Virus record (IMG/VR): IMGVR_UViG_3300025668_000681
Span: 1 to 22,635 of that record
DNA: 22,635 nt
Strand: one strand, 5' to 3'
Source of the DNA: a virus
In this document: positions 1,954 to 15,013 of the stretch, piece by piece
Position numbering within the stretch: position 1 is the stretch's first letter
How the letters are laid out: each line of letters begins with the position of its first letter
Translations under genes and position numbers: made by a program
Notes under the pieces: model-generated
Database searches by the model: none
The model's input: the letters and a program-made list of their open reading frames with translations, nothing else
Told to the model about the DNA's origin: nothing

Positions 1954-2617
1954 TAAATAATTCCTTGTATATGTAACTCATATCTCGTTCTCCCCAGAGA
2001 ACATGAGTACCTAAACTACGTTTGAACATAGTTTCTAAATTTAATACATTGTCTACAGCCGCACCTGTTTCTTCTAATCTAAACTGTGCTGTATCATGTA
2101 TTATACCTTGCATATATTTTTCTTCTATGTAAGGTGTTTCAACAGGTACGCAACCGTACCAGTCTATAGCTCGCATTTGTCCTTGACTATCAGTATAATG
2201 ACAGTGCGGATACATTGTTAGTTTATATGTTCCTTCATTATATTGATCTAAAATAATCTCTTTGATTTGTTGTCGCCAATCGCCTTCGGGCCAAAGGTTT
2301 GAACCATATATTATTTGATTACAACTTTTACCATACCATTTTAAATAGATACGTTTATCTTTTATATCTATAATTTCAGGTGCATAAGGTTTGCCTTCAA
2401 ACTTTTTTATATAGTCTAATTCGTTTTGGAAAAACCAATCACATACATCTTGTGTATATAAAGGCCTATCTGTTGTTTCCATGTACTGATAATCATTTGG
2501 AAAATTATAATTTTTACAAAATGTTTTACCATCACTACTTACTAGAGGTTCGTATGTTTGCTGTGCCATACATGGGCTTCCATAAGTATCTAATTTTAAA
2601 TACGGTTCCCAGTTCAT
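1946..2617 (-). CDS. Hypothetical protein, possibly kinase-fold (weak)
   Basis: A 223-residue protein that I do not recognise with certainty. Two stretches recall small protein-kinase/LPS-kinase-like folds. Residues 66-96 (a Glu-rich helix, then PEIIDIKDKRIYLKWYG) look like the helix C to hinge region. Residues 133-155 (LTMYPHCHYTDSQ, then MRAIDWYGC) look like a catalytic loop followed by a DFG-like Asp152. No glycine-rich loop or clear ATP-binding Lys is seen, so activity is doubtful. The ATG at 2617 has AAGG at 7-8 nt. It overlaps the upstream gene's stop as ATGA and the downstream oxygenase by 8 bp, so it is co-translated with oxygenases. It could equally be a structural or binding protein of that operon. 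Confidence 0.6.
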   Translation of the reverse strand: MNWEPYLKLDTYGSPCMAQQTYEPLVSSDGKTFCKNYNFPNDYQYMETTDRPLYTQDVCDWFFQNELDYIKKFEGKPYAPEIIDIKDKRIYLKWYGKSCNQIIYGSNLWPEGDWRQQIKEIILDQYNEGTYKLTMYPHCHYTDSQGQMRAIDWYGCVPVETPYIEEKYMQGIIHDTAQFRLEETGAAVDNVLNLETMFKRSLGTHVLWGERDMSYIYKELFNA

Positions 2618-3258
2618 GTTATTACCTTAAATAATTCTTGTTTTGGAAAAGTTGCAAGTGCGGCAGGAGTAATTTTAAAAGTTACTGTTACATTTTCGTA
2701 GTTAAAATCTTTCATTGCGCCTTGCTTGTTAATTGTATTTAACCAAGGGCTGATTAGATTATCAAACTGGTATCTAGTATCAAACAATTCTTCAACTGGT
2801 TGTATTTTTATATTAACTAAATTGTCATGCTCTGACTCAATTAATAGTTTTCTAACTACTAACTGATATCGATGTATGTTTCCGTAATTACTAGCAACAT
2901 GTCTTTTGCCAGCGTTCATTTCATACCAGTTACCGTCTGGTTGCGTAAGAAACATTTGTTCTTCATCTAAGTCGATTAGATAAGATCTTTCACCTTGTAA
3001 TGTTAAATGCCAGCGGTCGTCAATATCTGTATGGCTCATATATGTTGTGCCATAATCTAATTTAATAACCCTTGCTTCGCCCTGATCAACAGGTAACGAC
3101 TTTAGCAAATCTTCCCATATAGTATTTTTATATTCAGGTTTCACTTGCCAAGAGTCATAAAAAAATCTACCTGATGGCTCGTTTAGAGTTGTTTTTGCTT
3201 CTTGAAAATTAAAGCCCTTGCTAGGTAGACTTACAGAGTATTCAGTCTTGTGTAACAT
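2614..3258 (-). CDS. Asp/Asn-hydroxylase-like 2OG/Fe(II) oxygenase
   Basis: A 214-residue protein. Residues 75-140 carry the aspartyl/asparaginyl beta-hydroxylase pattern: SHTDIDDRWHLTL (75-87) with His76-x-Asp78, WYEMNAGKRHVASNYG (111-126) with distal His120, and an Arg at 130 before a hydrophobic strand, the expected 2OG-binding position. The last ~70 residues form an extra C-terminal part without motifs I know. This is the first gene of the leftward operon. Its ATG lies at the edge of the divergent quasi-palindrome, 5 nt after a late-promoter-like octamer, and unlike most genes here it has no Shine-Dalgarno sequence. The 3' end overlaps the next gene as ATGA. Oxygenase function is well supported by the triad; the substrate is unknown. 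Confidence 0.75.
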   Translation of the reverse strand: MLHKTEYSVSLPSKGFNFQEAKTTLNEPSGRFFYDSWQVKPEYKNTIWEDLLKSLPVDQGEARVIKLDYGTTYMSHTDIDDRWHLTLQGERSYLIDLDEEQMFLTQPDGNWYEMNAGKRHVASNYGNIHRYQLVVRKLLIESEHDNLVNIKIQPVEELFDTRYQFDNLISPWLNTINKQGAMKDFNYENVTVTFKITPAALATFPKQELFKVIT

Positions 3259-3263
3259 AGCAA

Positions 3264-3271
3264 TATTTATG
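3264..3271 (-). promoter_or_regulatory. T4-late-like promoter box CATAAATA (leftward)
   Basis: On the minus strand this reads CATAAATA, one base from the T4 late consensus TATAAATA and matching the NATAAATA form described for marine T4-like phages. It ends 5 nt before the ATG at 3258, so transcription from it would begin at about the start codon and give a leaderless mRNA. I find no -35 element at sigma-70 spacing. The identity is inferred from sequence only. Confidence 0.5.
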
Positions 3272-3272
3272 G

Positions 3273-3280
3273 CATAAGTA
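3273..3280 (+). promoter_or_regulatory. Late-like promoter box CATAAGTA (rightward)
   Basis: This is the mirror copy of the leftward box, reading CATAAGTA on the plus strand (6 of 8 to TATAAATA), and it also ends 5 nt before its ATG (3286). No Shine-Dalgarno sequence lies between box and start. It is the only gap that could hold the promoter of the four-gene plus-strand cassette, though the promoter could also lie inside the leftward gene. Confidence 0.42.
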
Positions 3281-3285
3281 TTGTT

Positions 3286-3963
3286 ATGAAACTGTATTTG
3301 AACGAGGATTGGTCTAAGATCGGAATAAGCCTCAGTGGTGGTGCAGACAGTGCTTTACTTGCATACTTAATTTGTTCTAACACTAATGCTGACATACACT
3401 TTACCACACAAATTAGAATGTGGCGTACGAGACCATGGGCAGAATTTATTGCTGAAGATGTAGTAAAGTGGTTTGAAAATAATTTTAAAAACAAGTTTAC
3501 ACATCATAAAAACCTTGTCCCGCCTGAAATGGAAGAACCTAGTACAGACTTAATTACAGATGAATACGGAAAAAAGAAACCTGGTAATAGAATAATACTT
3601 AGATCATTTAATGAGTACATTGCACACAAACATAAATTAAATGCGTTGTATGCAGCCGTAAACAAAAATCCAGATATAGAATTTGACGGAAGAGTCAAAG
3701 AAAGAGATGAAGGACATTTAGAACCTCATTTTGTGCATGATGGGATTGACATTTGTCATCCTTTCGTGTATACTAAAAAGGATTGGATAATACAACAATA
3801 CTACGATAACAATATATTAGATTTACTTTCTATTACTAGAAGTTGTGAAGGCGAGTTTAGCAACATAAATTATAAAACATATAAACCAGGAATGGTTGTA
3901 CCGGAATGTGGAGAATGTTTTTGGTGCAAAGAAAGAGAGTGGGCACTTGAAAAAGTCAAATAG
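3286..3963 (+). CDS. QueC-like PP-loop ATPase with four-Cys zinc site
   Basis: A 225-residue protein. Residues 12-22 end in SGGADS, the pyrophosphate-loop signature of N-type ATP pyrophosphatases. Near the C-terminus Cys187, Cys208, Cys211 and Cys214 follow the QueC zinc-site arrangement (C, then CxxCxxC followed by an Arg-containing helix), with about 20 residues between the first two Cys where known QueC proteins have about 8. QueC converts 7-carboxy- to 7-cyano-7-deazaguanine by adenylating a carboxylate and using ammonia. The fold and ATP chemistry are well supported; true QueC activity is not, as no QueD, QueE, FolE or transglycosylase is in the window. Carboxylate activation or amidation of another substrate is as likely. 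It leads the plus-strand cassette and overlaps the next gene. No Shine-Dalgarno precedes its ATG. Confidence 0.78.
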   Translation: MKLYLNEDWSKIGISLSGGADSALLAYLICSNTNADIHFTTQIRMWRTRPWAEFIAEDVVKWFENNFKNKFTHHKNLVPPEMEEPSTDLITDEYGKKKPGNRIILRSFNEYIAHKHKLNALYAAVNKNPDIEFDGRVKERDEGHLEPHFVHDGIDICHPFVYTKKDWIIQQYYDNNILDLLSITRSCEGEFSNINYKTYKPGMVVPECGECFWCKEREWALEKVK

Positions 3964-5218
3964 TTGTACATTTTGCATGCATCCTTTTACAGGACTTGCT
4001 ACACGAGAAGATGGTGCTATTAAAGTATGCTGTCGTAGTCAGCCTATTGGGTTTATACAAGATCAAACTTTAGAAGAAGTTTGGAATGGCGATAAGATGA
4101 AAGAAGTTAGACGCCAAGTTTTGAATAATGAACGCCCAGATGTTTGCAAGCCGTGTTTCGACTTAGAAGATCAGGGTGTAGAGAGCTTACGTCAGCGTCA
4201 TATAGCAGGAGTTATACCAGAAGCAAGAGTCAACTTATACCCAGATGCATTAGATGCATTAGAAGACGACTATAGCATGCCATTTGAACTTCCTACAATG
4301 GAAATTAAGCTCAATAACTTGTGTAATCTAAAATGTCGTATGTGTAATCCGTTGGATAGTACAAGTTGGAAGGACTGGAATCAAGTTACAGAGTTTTACA
4401 AAAAAGAAAACAACTATCTTATACCCACTGTAGACGCACTTGTAGACAAGCCAGGTCAATATATAGGACCGTTTGACAACTCAGACAACTGGTGGGCAAG
4501 TTTTGAAAAACTTTTGCCGTACTTTAGACGTGTAGAATTTGCAGGTGGTGAACCATTAATGGATCCCTATCATTATAAAATACTAGACATGCTTGCTCCA
4601 TATGGTAAAAACATAGAAATAAAATATGCTACAAACGGTACTACACTAGGTATAAAAGGCGGACGTACTATACACGACTATTGGCCCAAGTTTAAAAGTG
4701 TTGCTGTAAATGTAAGCATAGACGGTATACACGATGTCTACGAATACATTAGAGGCAATGGCAAGTTTAGTGAAGTAGAAGAAAACGTAAAAGTATTTAA
4801 GAGCTTTCCTAATGTAAGTAGAGTAGTAGGTGCATTTACTGTGCAAGCAAATAATATTTTGCAAATTTGCGATGTTATAGACTACTTCTTAAATGATATG
4901 GGTATTATATTTTATTCACATAGAGTAAATTATCCTATGTCGTTATCTGCACAAGTATTGCCGCCAGAGCTAAAGAAAAAAGTTGTAAGTGATTTAGAGG
5001 ACATGAAAGAAAAAGTACTAAATTACAAACTAGTACAAGAAAACGATTTACTTAAAAAAGTTACACTACAGCAGATACAAGATAATATTAATTTTTTACA
5101 ATCAAAATGTATGTACGACACACATTGGCAAGACTGTATAGAATTCAACAAAAGATTAGACAAAACACGAAACCAAGATTTCCTAAGTGCAAATCCAGAG
5201 TTTAAGTTTTATGTATAA
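3947..5218 (+). CDS. Radical SAM protein with N-terminal twitch domain (no. 1)
   Basis: About 423 residues from the TTG at 3947. This start keeps the conserved FC...DG...CC region and has AGAGAG upstream, overlapping the preceding gene by 17 bp. The reading frame is open from a TTG at 3896, and no suitable ATG exists. Numbered from 3947, the N-terminal domain has Cys10, Cys28-Cys29, Cys67 and Cys70 in the pattern of an N-terminal twitch (short SPASM) auxiliary Fe-S domain. The radical SAM core follows with CNLKCRMC (Cys126, 130, 133; CxxxCxxC) and GGEP at 200-203. These enzymes cleave S-adenosylmethionine to start radical chemistry on a peptide or small molecule. It is an architectural sibling of the genes at 7172-8584 and 20773-22149, but has a shorter N-terminus. 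The substrate is unknown. Confidence 0.85.
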   Translation: MKKSNSCTFCMHPFTGLATREDGAIKVCCRSQPIGFIQDQTLEEVWNGDKMKEVRRQVLNNERPDVCKPCFDLEDQGVESLRQRHIAGVIPEARVNLYPDALDALEDDYSMPFELPTMEIKLNNLCNLKCRMCNPLDSTSWKDWNQVTEFYKKENNYLIPTVDALVDKPGQYIGPFDNSDNWWASFEKLLPYFRRVEFAGGEPLMDPYHYKILDMLAPYGKNIEIKYATNGTTLGIKGGRTIHDYWPKFKSVAVNVSIDGIHDVYEYIRGNGKFSEVEENVKVFKSFPNVSRVVGAFTVQANNILQICDVIDYFLNDMGIIFYSHRVNYPMSLSAQVLPPELKKKVVSDLEDMKEKVLNYKLVQENDLLKKVTLQQIQDNINFLQSKCMYDTHWQDCIEFNKRLDKTRNQDFLSANPEFKFYV

Positions 5219-6107
5219 AATTATAAGCAAGTGGCCCCACCAAGATAGTATTCACGTTGAATGGAACATGGGTAAACGGTGCAATTTAGATTGCGGATAT
5301 TGTCCAGCTGAAATACATGATAACTTTAGCCCGCATACTCCTTTGCAAACATTTAAAGATGCAATTGACAAGTTAGTAGAAATAGGTAAACCTATAAGAC
5401 TAAGTTTCACAGGCGGAGAACCGTGTGTACATCCTAATATAAAAGAAATACTTGATTATGCAAGAGATAAAGTTGAATGGATAAACATTACAACAAACGG
5501 TACATTACCGTTTGAGTTTTATATTCGGTTGCCAGTAAACCATTACGTGTTTAGTATACATTTTGACAACGAAGTTGTTGATAAAGTTGTAAGCAACGTT
5601 TTAGTATGGGCGCAAAACAACGAAGTTGATAACTTACCTTTCCAACTTAATATTATGGCACACCACGAACATATGGAAAAGGTAAGAGAAGTTACACGTC
5701 AGTTTGACAATCATATTATACCATATGTAATTAGACGCATACGATGGACCGACGCAGACGACCGTGACTGGTTTGACGACCTGAGATACAAAGGCGATGA
5801 CTTAAAATGGATTCTTGACAAAACAGCAACAGCAAAACCTAATGTAATTATTGACGATGACAAAGAAATGCATGCTAATGATGTAATAAAAGAAAAATTA
5901 AATTCGTTTGAAGGTTGGAAATGTAATGCTGGTGTAGAAAGTTTAATGATTAACTGGGACGGTGAAGTACATAGAGCAACATGTAGAGTTGGTGGAAGTT
6001 TAGGTAACATATACAACGGTAGTTTTGATTACCCAACACAATCTATTATTTGTACACGCAAATGGTGTACATGTGCCGCTGATATACCACTTACAAAGGT
6101 AAAATAA
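5211..6107 (+). CDS. Radical SAM protein with C-terminal twitch/SPASM-like Cys cluster (no. 2)
   Basis: A protein of 298 residues from the ATG at 5211; the frame is open from a GTG at 5187, but the ATG is the better start and overlaps the preceding gene by 8 bp. The [4Fe-4S]/SAM motif is CNLDCGYC (Cys24, 28, 31) and GGEP lies at 68-71. A C-terminal cluster of Cys238, 258, 281, 286 and 288, beginning GWKCNAG, looks like a twitch/SPASM-type site for an auxiliary Fe-S centre. The same GW-CNAG sequence occurs in the radical SAM gene at 10749-11735, so these two form a subgroup. It is likely co-translated with the N-twitch enzyme before it, which suggests consecutive steps on one substrate. The substrate is not known. 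Confidence 0.87.
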   Translation: MYKIISKWPHQDSIHVEWNMGKRCNLDCGYCPAEIHDNFSPHTPLQTFKDAIDKLVEIGKPIRLSFTGGEPCVHPNIKEILDYARDKVEWINITTNGTLPFEFYIRLPVNHYVFSIHFDNEVVDKVVSNVLVWAQNNEVDNLPFQLNIMAHHEHMEKVREVTRQFDNHIIPYVIRRIRWTDADDRDWFDDLRYKGDDLKWILDKTATAKPNVIIDDDKEMHANDVIKEKLNSFEGWKCNAGVESLMINWDGEVHRATCRVGGSLGNIYNGSFDYPTQSIICTRKWCTCAADIPLTKVK

Positions 6108-6108
6108 A

Positions 6109-7224
6109 ATGGCAATCGTTTTTTGCATAGTTAATGATATAGATAGTTATAGTTCTGAAGATATCAAAAGAACAATTACTAATATAGCAAATTTTACAAT
6201 CGCAAACATAAAAACAAAAGGTTATGAAGTTCTAGTAGGGAACAATGAAGATGAACTTTTACAACTTGCAAATAGATACGATTATGCTGTTGTAATGAGT
6301 CCTGGTACAGAAATAATTAACGGAGTTGCGTTTTTTGAAGCAATAGAAGAACTTGTAAAAAGAGACTTTTTTATAGCAGGACATGTATTAGATAGAACTA
6401 TGCATAATGCATACTACGAACTACATCATCAGTGCTATGTGGTTAATATGGCGGTTTATAACGCATATAAGGGCCCTACAGTAGGTTCTTTTCAGAAAGA
6501 CGTACAACATACCCAACTACAGCCACAACGTAGCACAAGCAATATACACGACGATTATACCCCTCATTTTGTCAATACAGGATTTATCGAAGTAACATAC
6601 AAACATAAATGCCACGGGTGGAATTTACTAAAAATAGCATTTGAAAATGAGCTACCTGTAGTTGTTTTTGATGACAGTATTAGAAACAACAAAATACATT
6701 ACTATCCTGAAAGCAAAGATGACTATTATAAACATTGTCATTTGATACAAGAAAAATTAGATTACTGTAAGAACGAGTTTGTACACACAGACAACACTGA
6801 ATGGTCTACAGGTATAAATGAAAAGTACGAACAAGTTGTTTTACCTGCTAGTGGAACATTATACTTAGATTTGATTGATGCTGGTCGTGTAGTGTTTTAT
6901 GACTACAATCAAAAAGCTCTAGACTATTGGAAAGAAGCATGTCCACGTAAGGAACACATAGAGTATGTGTTTGTGTACACTAACTTATTAGAAGAAGTAT
7001 TAATTGTAGATCACTTAGATCCTAAATTAAAAACACTAGTAAACTTATCTAATATATTTTGTTACGAAGGCACTGTTGCACAATATAGTTTAGAAGATAG
7101 AATTAAAGCAGAAAGTTTATTAGAATATTGTCTAAAAAGCAAATTGAAAGATGTTAAAATTAATTTTACTCTTAAAGCAAATGCGCTAACTCAGGAAACA
7201 CAGTTGCCGCGTTTAACCCTCTAA
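6109..7224 (+). CDS. Hypothetical two-part protein (glycosyltransferase-like N half, Rossmann-like C half)
   Basis: A 371-residue protein that I do not recognise as a named family. The first ~190 residues (YDYAVVMSPGTEI at 57-69; HFVNTGFIEV about 153-162; a VVVFDDS strand at 184-190) have the feel of a GT-A-like or related nucleotide-sugar fold. The second half (LPASGTLYLDL at 245-255, VVFYDYN at 261-267, YVFVYTNLL at 286-294) resembles a Rossmann/methyltransferase-like sheet. Neither has a decisive motif. It starts 1 bp after the previous stop, with AAGG upstream. The last ~17 residues are read antisense through the conserved end of the convergent radical SAM gene, so this tail is probably a recent or unselected extension. 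It is the last gene of the plus-strand cassette. Confidence 0.62.
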   Translation: MAIVFCIVNDIDSYSSEDIKRTITNIANFTIANIKTKGYEVLVGNNEDELLQLANRYDYAVVMSPGTEIINGVAFFEAIEELVKRDFFIAGHVLDRTMHNAYYELHHQCYVVNMAVYNAYKGPTVGSFQKDVQHTQLQPQRSTSNIHDDYTPHFVNTGFIEVTYKHKCHGWNLLKIAFENELPVVVFDDSIRNNKIHYYPESKDDYYKHCHLIQEKLDYCKNEFVHTDNTEWSTGINEKYEQVVLPASGTLYLDLIDAGRVVFYDYNQKALDYWKEACPRKEHIEYVFVYTNLLEEVLIVDHLDPKLKTLVNLSNIFCYEGTVAQYSLEDRIKAESLLEYCLKSKLKDVKINFTLKANALTQETQLPRLTL

Positions 7225-11735: not shown

Positions 11736-12789
11736 ACAATGCTCCTGAACAATTTTTTACACACGTAATACACTTGTTTTCTCCTATCCAATATGATTCT
11801 AACTTTTCCCACATGCTTTGATTTGCAAGTGTATCATCTATATTAGCATTATTTAAATTTGGTACGCCTACATCTGTCATTATCATTTGACTGTTTTCAA
11901 CTGTTAGGTCACGTAATTTTTGTAGCACCATATTTCCGTTAATTGGTTCTTCAATCCAATCGCTCCCTATCCAACAGCACGGTAATAGATTACCATAGGG
12001 ATCAACATATAATTCATTCTTAGTAACGCACTGTGGTTCTATTGTTGATTTATCTATTAATTGTTGTATAGCATCTGGTGATAAAAACTTTTCAATATCA
12101 TCTTTAAATCCGTTGTTCCATTCTGGCAAGGTTGCTTGATGTAAATCGTATGCATGACTTCCATCTTTATTTTGTACGGGGAAGCCTCCTAAGTTATAAA
12201 ACCTTTTCGTAGATTTAAAGTTTACTTCAGTAACACCTAAGTCTAATAGATATTTTTCTAATTCTTTTGTTTCGTGTTCGTTATGTGCAAACACTAAACT
12301 GTCTACTCTTGCATCTCCGCCCGCATCAACAAATGCTTTAATACTTTCAATTACTTTTTCAAATTTAGTATGACGTCTATATAATTCATGCTTACCAGCA
12401 AACCCGTCTACAGCAAATATAACTTGTCCATTAGGATTAATAATTTTTGCAAGTGCTTGCCACCAATCTTTAGTTCGCAAACTACCATTAGTGTGTAATG
12501 CTAATCTTGCTGTAGGATTGCACCGTCTTACATAAGTGTAAATTTCTAAACAGTCTTTAGCAAAAGCAGGATCGCCATAGTTGCCGCAACTATAAAAATT
12601 GTTTAGTTTAGATAAAAACTTAGGTGTAAACCATTGTACAAATTGATCAATGCTTATGTCAGCATTTTTAATAAACGGTCTATCTGCGCCGCCATTAATG
12701 TTTCTAGCACACATAGGACAAGCTGCTTGACATTTATCTGTAAGCTCAATATGTAATGCTGTTATGCTGTCTAAGTATTCCCTAATCAT
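11725..12789 (-). CDS. Radical SAM/SPASM protein (no. 5)
   Basis: A 354-residue protein. CQAACPMC (Cys20, 24, 27) near the N-terminus is the CxxxCxxC motif. At 68-74 it has CGNYGDP where most family members have GGEP, a variation seen in SPASM-type radical SAM proteins. The C-terminal cluster is larger than in the C-twitch genes: Cys254, Cys271-272, Cys340, Cys343 and Cys347, around a DPYGNLLPCCW segment. This fits a SPASM domain with one or two auxiliary Fe-S clusters. SPASM enzymes typically modify peptides or act as anaerobic maturases, but non-peptide substrates are known. It overlaps the modular glycosyltransferase-like gene by 8 bp and lacks a strong Shine-Dalgarno, so it is probably translated by coupling. 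Confidence 0.86.
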   Translation of the reverse strand: MIREYLDSITALHIELTDKCQAACPMCARNINGGADRPFIKNADISIDQFVQWFTPKFLSKLNNFYSCGNYGDPAFAKDCLEIYTYVRRCNPTARLALHTNGSLRTKDWWQALAKIINPNGQVIFAVDGFAGKHELYRRHTKFEKVIESIKAFVDAGGDARVDSLVFAHNEHETKELEKYLLDLGVTEVNFKSTKRFYNLGGFPVQNKDGSHAYDLHQATLPEWNNGFKDDIEKFLSPDAIQQLIDKSTIEPQCVTKNELYVDPYGNLLPCCWIGSDWIEEPINGNMVLQKLRDLTVENSQMIMTDVGVPNLNNANIDDTLANQSMWEKLESYWIGENKCITCVKNCSGALYEQ

Positions 12790-15013
12790 AACTATTTTGG
12801 AATTGTTCCTCTAGCCAATCAAAGTCGTTAATAAGTGCAAGAACTTCGGGCTTGTTTTTATTTTCTTTTCCAAACACAGTGCCTTGTTCAGCGCCACGTT
12901 TTGCTTCTTCTCTAAATGATGCATCTGGTATAGGATGCAGCCATGCTTGCAATCTATCTTCTGTTTCATCATCAATTTGTCCAGTAATACTTTTACTTGC
13001 TAGTTTAGTACATTCTCTAAATGCACTTTTCCAAGTATTATATGCATCAGTATTAAACGCTGTATAATTACTTATTTGGTCTACAACTTTAAATCTATCA
13101 CTAATACTAGTAGTCATGTCAGTTGTGTTAACATCTACGTTTTCTGTAAGTAGTCTTGGTAATAGTTTTACACCACCGTTACCGTACTGTAATCCATTAA
13201 CAGGATTTATACTTCTCCATACATGTACAGTTGTTTCGTCCCACGCAGGCACTTGGTAATCAAATTTAAAATCATCGCACATATCAGCATCACCGTCTAC
13301 TACAAAAAACATTCTAGTCGATGATAATTCAGCGGCTTTTTTGTGTGCTTGATGTATTCCTTTAACATCTCTTACCCAACGTAAACTTATTCTTGGATCT
13401 TCTTGTCTAATTTTATCTTGTAGTTTTTGAAAGTGTTTGTCAGCATTAGGTTCTTTATAGCTGATAAAAGCAACATCATAAGGTGCCGGTGTACTAACAG
13501 TTATATCGATTTCTTTTTTCTTTACAAAAAATTTATAATCAAACTCACGTTGTGCAAGTGGCTTGTTATTGTGTATTAGAAACACACCGTCGTGATACTT
13601 ACCGTTTTTAAATACGTGTACGTTATCACGTTCATAATAAGGTATGTGATATTTGAAATCCCAATCTACGTCTACGTCATTAGGTATTACCCAAACAAAA
13701 TTACTGTTAGTAGTTGTCATTTGTAATATAAAGTCATCATAATCGTCAACATAAATTTTGTCGTAAGATTTTACAGTCGAAACTACTATGTCAACTTCTT
13801 TTTTATTTCTAAAAAATCTATAATCAAATTCTCGTTGAGATATTTCGTTTTCTTTGTGTATTAAAAATATACCGTCATAGTACTCGTTATTTTTAAAAAG
13901 ATGGACATTATTCTTTTCATAATAAGGTATATGATATTTAAAATCCCAGTCTACTTCTACATCGTTAGGTATTACATAGAAAAAATCTGTGCTGACTTTT
14001 GTTTTTAGCTCGCAAAATTCTTCATAAGAATTTACTACAATTTTGTCGTATTCTGTTTGTTCACTTGCTACTATATTATGTTCTTTTTTATTTGTAATAA
14101 ATTTATACTTAAACTCACGTTTGCTTATAGGTGCATGCTTACTACACAAAACAATGCCGTCATAGTATTCGCCATTTTTAAATACATGATTTATTTTTCT
14201 ATCAAACTCATTATCGTGACTAAAATACAAGTCAAACTCAAAGTCATCACGTAGAAGAACATGAGGAGGAATCATCCAAAACAGTTCTGTTTCTACAGTT
14301 TCTAAATATGCAAGATAGTCTTCATATGTATTAACTACACAAATTTCATATTGTCTAGGCTCACTTACTACATCGTCCCACTGCTTTGCATTTACTAAAA
14401 ATCTATAGTCTATTTGTTTTTTGTTGAGAGGTTTGTTTTGCGAACATAAGAATACACCATTGTATAATTTCCTTCCATCAACCTCATGTACAAATGCATG
14501 ATTTTCTTTTCTGTCGTAACTGTTATGGTGACTAAAATAAAAGTTGTTTATATATGACTGACTATATTTTAAATTGCGTGATACTGCCCAAAACATTTCT
14601 GTTGAACTATTTTCGAGTGCATTTTCATAATCTTCATAAGAATCTATGTAAAAAACGTCATACCTAGTTGGCATACTTGCTACTATATCAACTTCTTTTT
14701 TGTTTACAAAAAATCTGTGTTTTATTTCTTTTGTTGATATGTGTATATCTCTTGGAACTAAACATATGCCGTCAAAGTACGTATCATTTAAAAATGTATG
14801 TACATACTTTTTATCCCATTCAGCTACTTCGTAATCAAATGTAAAATTGTCTTGTACATCTACATCGTCCCAAACAACATAAAACATGTCGCTTAGAGCT
14901 TTACGTTGTGCTTGTTCAAAACTAGTTGCAAATTTAGCCGTGGGGTATTTCGTACATAATGTCTTGTACTGAGACTGGTTATTCTTTGGTGATACAAATA
15001 TTATATCATACAT
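12782..15013 (-). CDS. Large modular protein: five degenerate ~95-116 aa repeats plus a glycosyltransferase-like domain
   Basis: A 743-residue protein, the largest in the window. Residues 2-511 are five copies of one module: a YD-start strand, an FFWVIPNDV-like strand, a WDFKYHIPYY-like strand, an HVFKN-YYDGIFLI hairpin and an REFDYRFF-NKKE end. Copies span about 2-117, 118-221, 222-321, 322-416 and 417-511; the last two are exactly 95 residues apart. Residues 512-620 are a sixth, fuller copy with VVDGDADM (571-578), a DxD-like metal site typical of GT-A glycosyltransferases, and YGNGGVKLLPR (610-620). Residues 621-743 form a tail homologous to the partial gene at the right edge. No signal peptide or membrane segment is seen. 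Only the last module keeps the DxD-like site, so the others may bind sugar or scaffold. It is the first gene after a sigma-70-like promoter and has no Shine-Dalgarno. Confidence 0.85.
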   Translation of the reverse strand: MYDIIFVSPKNNQSQYKTLCTKYPTAKFATSFEQAQRKALSDMFYVVWDDVDVQDNFTFDYEVAEWDKKYVHTFLNDTYFDGICLVPRDIHISTKEIKHRFFVNKKEVDIVASMPTRYDVFYIDSYEDYENALENSSTEMFWAVSRNLKYSQSYINNFYFSHHNSYDRKENHAFVHEVDGRKLYNGVFLCSQNKPLNKKQIDYRFLVNAKQWDDVVSEPRQYEICVVNTYEDYLAYLETVETELFWMIPPHVLLRDDFEFDLYFSHDNEFDRKINHVFKNGEYYDGIVLCSKHAPISKREFKYKFITNKKEHNIVASEQTEYDKIVVNSYEEFCELKTKVSTDFFYVIPNDVEVDWDFKYHIPYYEKNNVHLFKNNEYYDGIFLIHKENEISQREFDYRFFRNKKEVDIVVSTVKSYDKIYVDDYDDFILQMTTTNSNFVWVIPNDVDVDWDFKYHIPYYERDNVHVFKNGKYHDGVFLIHNNKPLAQREFDYKFFVKKKEIDITVSTPAPYDVAFISYKEPNADKHFQKLQDKIRQEDPRISLRWVRDVKGIHQAHKKAAELSSTRMFFVVDGDADMCDDFKFDYQVPAWDETTVHVWRSINPVNGLQYGNGGVKLLPRLLTENVDVNTTDMTTSISDRFKVVDQISNYTAFNTDAYNTWKSAFRECTKLASKSITGQIDDETEDRLQAWLHPIPDASFREEAKRGAEQGTVFGKENKNKPEVLALINDFDWLEEQFQNSYD
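13154..15010 (-). repeat. Tandem coding repeat array of six modules
   Basis: Modules in coding order map to about 15010-14663, 14662-14351, 14350-14051, 14050-13766, 13765-13481 and 13480-13154. The fourth and fifth copies are also similar as DNA: 13916-13975 and 13631-13690 agree at 54 of 60 positions, with an offset of 285 bp (95 codons). The outer copies are diverged and somewhat longer. The array grew by in-frame tandem duplication, most recently at copies four and five. Confidence 0.85.

Follow-up and report, generated by a model that had tools for sequence, protein, structure and literature searches.

Leaderless messages such as that of lambda cI are translated in an AUG-dependent manner, and the late messages of bacteriophage T4, the textbook system, usually carry a leader with a ribosome-binding site. 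Activation of T4-type late promoters depends on gp33/gp45, and transcription starts one turn downstream. The T4 late promoter is an 8-bp box, TATAAATA, located at −13 to −6 and without a −35 element (PMC2988020). In mycobacteria, leaderless mRNAs begin at or close to the start codon and lack a Shine-Dalgarno sequence (PMC3898074, PMC4633059). In known prokaryotic bidirectional promoters, a single −10 element is shared and the two starts are separated by 10, 18 or 23 bp (PMC12825309), and for pelagimyophages late-promoter prediction has been reported as unsuccessful (PMC7029224). Here, we describe a 33-bp viral element that probably consists of two T4-type late promoters in a compact divergent arrangement, from which two operons would both begin as leaderless mRNAs.

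The stretch of DNA analysed (the window) is a complete IMG/VR record of 22,635 bp. Its positions 3256–3288, CATAGCAATATTTATGGCATAAGTATTGTTATG, end in divergent ATGs, one at 3258 on the minus strand and one at 3286 on the plus strand, and hold two 8-mers, CATAAATA and CATAAGTA, with a gap of 1 bp between them and an ATG 5 nt from each (Table 1). The original prediction of a quasi-palindrome with mirrored boxes 5 nt from two divergent start codons is confirmed, with arms that match at 14 of 16 positions and mismatches at 3260/3284 (G/T) and 3266/3278 (T/G). That both differences keep G-U pairing, as was also proposed, is valid for the plus-strand RNA only, because the opposite strand has C/A mismatches there. 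The minus box matches the T4 late box at 7/8 positions and the plus box at 6/8. Given that each box ends 5 nt before its ATG, T4 geometry would place +1 on the A of the ATG and hence yield a leaderless mRNA.

Table 1 Features at and around the divergent junction of the window.
Feature	Position	Strand	Remarks
Putative compact divergent promoter, ATG-N5-box-1 bp-box-N5-ATG quasi-palindrome	3256..3288	.	Layout also in at least 119 viral stretches
Late-promoter-like box CATAAATA	3264..3271	-	−13 to −6 from the A of the minus ATG; box and 5-nt spacing kept in relatives
Late-promoter-like box CATAAGTA	3273..3280	+	−13 to −6 from the A of the plus ATG
Predicted minus-strand +1, on the first letter of the ATG	3258..3258	-	Deduced from where T4 late promoters start (PMC2988020)
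Predicted plus-strand +1, on the first letter of the ATG	3286..3286	+	Deduced from where T4 late promoters start (PMC2988020)
First minus-operon gene; 214-aa product of unknown family	2614..3258	-	Relatives exist
First plus-cassette gene; 225-aa QueC-like PP-loop product with SGGADS motif	3286..3963	+	PHROG 1550, E = 2.6e-9; start confirmed by homologues
Other plus-cassette genes, for two radical-SAM proteins (SPASM in the first) and a 371-aa product that matched no family	3896..7224	+	

The symmetry had been judged well beyond chance. This holds against a random 27-bp spacer between divergent ATGs, for which 14/16 is reached with P ~4.5e-5; once two half-sites of the same class are assumed, random pairings of the half-sites among the matches listed in an IMG/VR scan (below) reach at least 14/16 in 4.7% of cases. 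Among the same listed matches, the arms of the 33-bp class agree at 9–15 of 16 positions, with a class mean of 11.6 compared with 11.0 in shuffled pairings. The symmetry is real, yet largely accounted for by one element serving as both arms: the arms are alike because two copies of one short signal face apart. The suggestion of a duplicated and inverted minimal late promoter giving two leaderless mRNAs stands in part. Mirrored promoters are well supported at the sequence level by spacing enrichment, the restriction to AUG, the lack of Shine-Dalgarno sequences, the identity of the late genes and a gp55 homologue in large relatives, whereas an origin by duplication and inversion finds little support in a class arm identity barely above that of random half-site pairing among the matches listed.

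We counted TAARTA before ATGs that open at least 80 codons in nine related uncultured viral contigs (1.1 Mb). There are 58 matches at a spacing of N5 and 24 at N4, compared with approximately 4–6 at each other spacing, followed by a dip at N8–13 and a second hump at N16–35; chance alone would account for about 12 of the 82 N4/N5 sites. Enrichment at N4/5 is 3.3- to 10-fold, and even though homologous genes across the nine contigs are non-independent events, each contig is significant on its own (P = 6e-4 to 3e-11). The class has the consensus (G/A)ATAARTA, and GTG and TTG starts show no N4/N5 peak in the nine contigs. It is very unlikely that the promoters lie elsewhere and that TAARTA before ATG is a feature of translation initiation or sequence composition. 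The contigs are AT-rich (GC 0.34–0.38), as this reading would favour, but box-reversed and permuted hexamers (ATRAAT, AATART) have no N4/N5 peak of such size in the same contigs, and the AT-rich genomes of T4, PA5oct and 121Q lack the peak. Moreover, Shine-Dalgarno sequences return at the second hump (N16–35) of the same hexamer, which fits a transcription signal.

Shine-Dalgarno-like tetramers precede 3/82 genes of the N4/5 class, compared with 88/164 of the N16–30 class and 437/997 of all genes (Fisher ~1e-15), in part because the box fills the Shine-Dalgarno position. The N4/5 class thus combines an AUG start with the lack of a Shine-Dalgarno sequence, the two marks of leaderless mRNAs. A logo of its 82 sites has no conserved position upstream of −13 and hence no −35 element. 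Both the missing −35 and the conserved hexamer TAA(A/G)TA speak against host sigma-70-type −10 elements that produce near-leaderless early mRNAs in place of gp55 late promoters. TAAATA does partly resemble TATAAT and the start-to-start spacing would likewise be near-leaderless, but sigma-70-like promoters, like terminators, are no more frequent near the junction than in shuffles, the class holds late genes such as TerL and the tail tube gene, and gp55 is present in large relatives; we consider this reading quite unlikely. A TGCGCA-like element was also seen upstream of or between many of the predicted leaderless boxes (G002:141754–141811, G001 (minus start 49929), L052 and L086), with GCGCA/TGCGC within 40 nt of 11/82 N4/5 sites, 2/159 N16–30 sites and 2.3% of random 40-mers. 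The window junction lacks this element, which may serve as an operator or activator site elsewhere.

At the junction itself, each ATG is the sole ATG, GTG or TTG start after the last in-frame stop. The 225-aa plus protein begins at the same methionine in 22 relatives and is conserved from the N terminus onward, and the next methionine in the window is residue 45, beyond the SGGADS loop. Together, the conserved N terminus and the motif thus fix the plus ATG, and this counts against a variant in which the boxes are late promoters but ribosomes start downstream, or +1 falls a few nucleotides upstream and leaves very short leaders. The preference for AUG alone and the sharp cut-off at N4/5 are further arguments for starts on the codon itself, although the presence of both N4 and N5 indicates that +1 can shift by one nucleotide; overall, we regard very short leaders as unlikely. 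Leaderless late promoters, the reading we prefer, are also consistent with homologous loci. Among homologues of the plus gene with 60–75% identity, TAAGTA or TAAATA stands 4–5 nt before the ATG in most eligible loci, defined as those with no close co-directional gene upstream, operon-internal loci being set aside.

A 45-kb sister contig, G020, represents the same phage species as the window, with 99.8% and 99.05% identity over the window. At its junction, three bases of one 5-nt spacer differ and the arms match at only 12/16, but both boxes and their spacings are intact. The sole differences in the 33-mer are AGC in the window and GCT in G020 at window positions 3259–3261; these are mutual reverse complements, and reflect either a 3-bp micro-inversion or three substitutions. 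As anticipated from the locus, the box recurs near other gene starts: beyond the junction, G020 carries another three N5 sites, among them a second divergent pair, and its TAARTA-N4/5-ATG enrichment is significant alone (P = 6e-4). The full motif CATAAATATTG fared less well, with 29 matches in the window and 23.9 expected, that is, no enrichment as such. The core that matters is TAARTA at a fixed distance from the ATG, not the full motif.

The layout CATN5TAYTTAN5TAARTAN5ATG occurs in at least 119 stretches of IMG/VR, compared with 19 for a box-reversed control. Among the matches listed, 59/73 distinct cores join two open reading frames (starting at both ATGs and at least 80 aa long or open to the contig end), compared with 0/13 for the control. 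A scar or recombination site of cassette inversion, in which the palindrome would record or permit flipping of the plus cassette, was the other origin put forward for the junction, and the plus cassette (3286–7224) does lie on the strand opposite to the rest of the window. However, dozens of gene pairs that are unrelated to one another share the 33-bp layout, and the boxes are also found unpaired in front of late genes. Identity outside the boxes is about that of random half-site pairs, falls to the 12/16 of the sister phage and is not conserved as an inverted repeat kept at the ends of an invertible segment would be. As the palindrome itself is not conserved, and no cassette was seen in both orientations with the same flanking repeat in the loci examined, we dropped the inversion origin as extremely improbable.

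For the plus cassette, no direct DNA or protein matches were found in annotated phages. Its region 6275–7184 has a second copy, 78% identical and on the opposite strand, in G020 (30790–31700), and the 371-aa gene may hence be duplicated in this phage. Elsewhere, the window encodes a 743-aa protein (12782–15013, minus) with several imperfect internal repeats of ~80–100 residues visible in the translation. A dense cluster of genes for radical-SAM/SPASM proteins, 2OG-Fe(II) oxygenases and sugar-nucleotide epimerases/dehydrogenases spans 2–22634.

Divergent starts are set at discrete distances. The orthologous divergent pair has start-to-start distances of 27–28, 39–41, 44 or 54–55, and a count of all divergent pairs of predicted leaderless late promoters over related contigs (for example, L011, G003, G006, G011, G020 and L086) gives 30, 27, 1 and 7 pairs for these classes, with none at 29–38 or 45–53. 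Discrete distances recur in different gene pairs, with one pair at 50 in that comparison, in which the loci taken from the 33-bp scan were ascertained for a distance of 28. The steps between distances are ~12 and ~14 bp and do not fit whole 10.5-bp helical turns. Among the listed matches of the 33-bp class, the two boxes of a pair agree on A or G at position −8 at a rate of 0.83 compared with 0.51 expected, as if the preference for TAAGTA or TAAATA went by phage lineage; the window is a mixed case within this class.

Links to T4 late transcription extend beyond the box. With T4 gp55 as the query, every contig over 115 kb gave a match (7/7), and the late sigma of one large contig hits phrog_12791, ‘sigma factor for late transcription’ (E = 7e-77). 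Searches of the 22.6-kb window and the 45-kb sister, both fragments, did not find gp55, which was found only in the large relatives. N4/5-class genes in relatives include those for TerL, a tail tube protein, a head virion structural protein and a baseplate wedge subunit. As neither junction gene of the window is structural, their late timing is predicted solely from the promoter. By gp55 and TerL, the nearest cultured phages are jumbo Pseudomonas phages such as PA5oct, followed by Sinorhizobium phage Phosso and Agrobacterium phage Atu_ph07. Of these relatives, PA5oct, Atu_ph07 and 121Q have no N5 enrichment, and none was found in T4, KVP40, S-PM2, the Prochlorococcus phages P-SSM4 and P-SSM2 or the methylophage Melnitz.

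Each half-site would act as a gp55-type late box that lacks a −35 element and stops exactly 5 nt short of the ATG, so that initiation one helical turn downstream would fall on the A of the start codon. Late in infection, a gp55–RNA polymerase would bind one of the two abutting boxes and fire in either direction, and the resulting transcript would be read by leaderless initiation. With the boxes back to back and only 1 bp apart, probably one late RNA polymerase could be accommodated at a time; as open complexes cannot fill both boxes, the two operons should alternate and have linked rates. We infer the use of the boxes by gp55–RNA polymerase, the exact +1, leaderless translation and mutual exclusion. 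For the class as a whole, the data suggest that many late proteins are made from messages without a ribosome-binding leader across uncultured, distant T4 relatives.

Among cultured phages, the SAR11 phage HTVC008M shows the N5 peak, with 12 TAAATA sites at N5, most of them at annotated CDS starts, and SAR11 phage Mosig shows weak N5 enrichment (P = 0.02). Candidate leaderless ATGs in HTVC008M include those at 6280, 7562, 18916, 18943, 19456, 31132, 49760, 75559 and 75830. HTVC008M resembles the class described here in that TAAATA-N5-ATG marks annotated late genes, among them the divergent DNA end protector and head completion genes, with starts 27 apart. It differs in belonging to the Kyanoviridae, in its T4-sized gp55 and in that the box is often TAAATAG. 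We found no description of its late genes as leaderless in the literature searched, nor any of boxes fused to start codons, abutting divergent pairs or discrete pair distances. We tentatively propose, as a possibility short of an even chance, that uncultured T4-related phages and, independently, SAR11 phages run a substantial part of their late programme on leaderless mRNAs from gp55 promoters joined directly to start codons, with back-to-back boxes that couple divergent late operons and serve as one-polymerase-at-a-time bidirectional switches at the fixed distances of 27–28, 39–41 and 54–55. If true, late protein synthesis, including that of terminase and tail proteins, would use a different mode of translation initiation in environmentally widespread phages. 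It would also provide a promoter rule where late-promoter prediction in pelagimyophages had failed (PMC7029224), better start-codon annotation and a minimal natural bidirectional promoter. The leaderless claim is directly testable in the cultured HTVC008M.

The known part is the box, which varies on the T4 late promoter. An 8-bp box of matching sequence and position, no −35 element and an AT-rich stretch downstream are shared with T4, as are an encoded gp55 homologue (in large relatives) and late structural genes downstream, both of the latter seen in relatives. Unlike T4, the class favours G/A at −13/−12 and A or G at −8, places the box 4–5 nt from the ATG (predicted leaderless) and not ahead of a leader with a Shine-Dalgarno sequence, and often occurs as abutting divergent pairs. 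Compared with mycobacterial and lambda cI leaderless mRNAs, the predicted leaderless starts are bound to a phage late promoter class and to many T4-related late operons. Known bidirectional promoters (PMC12825309) are likewise short and pseudo-symmetrical, give two opposite transcripts and are expected to involve competition between polymerase orientations. However, in place of one shared −10 with starts 10, 18 or 23 bp apart, the window has two separate boxes with starts 28 apart, and in the class such boxes are either abutting (28) or spaced at ~40 or 55.
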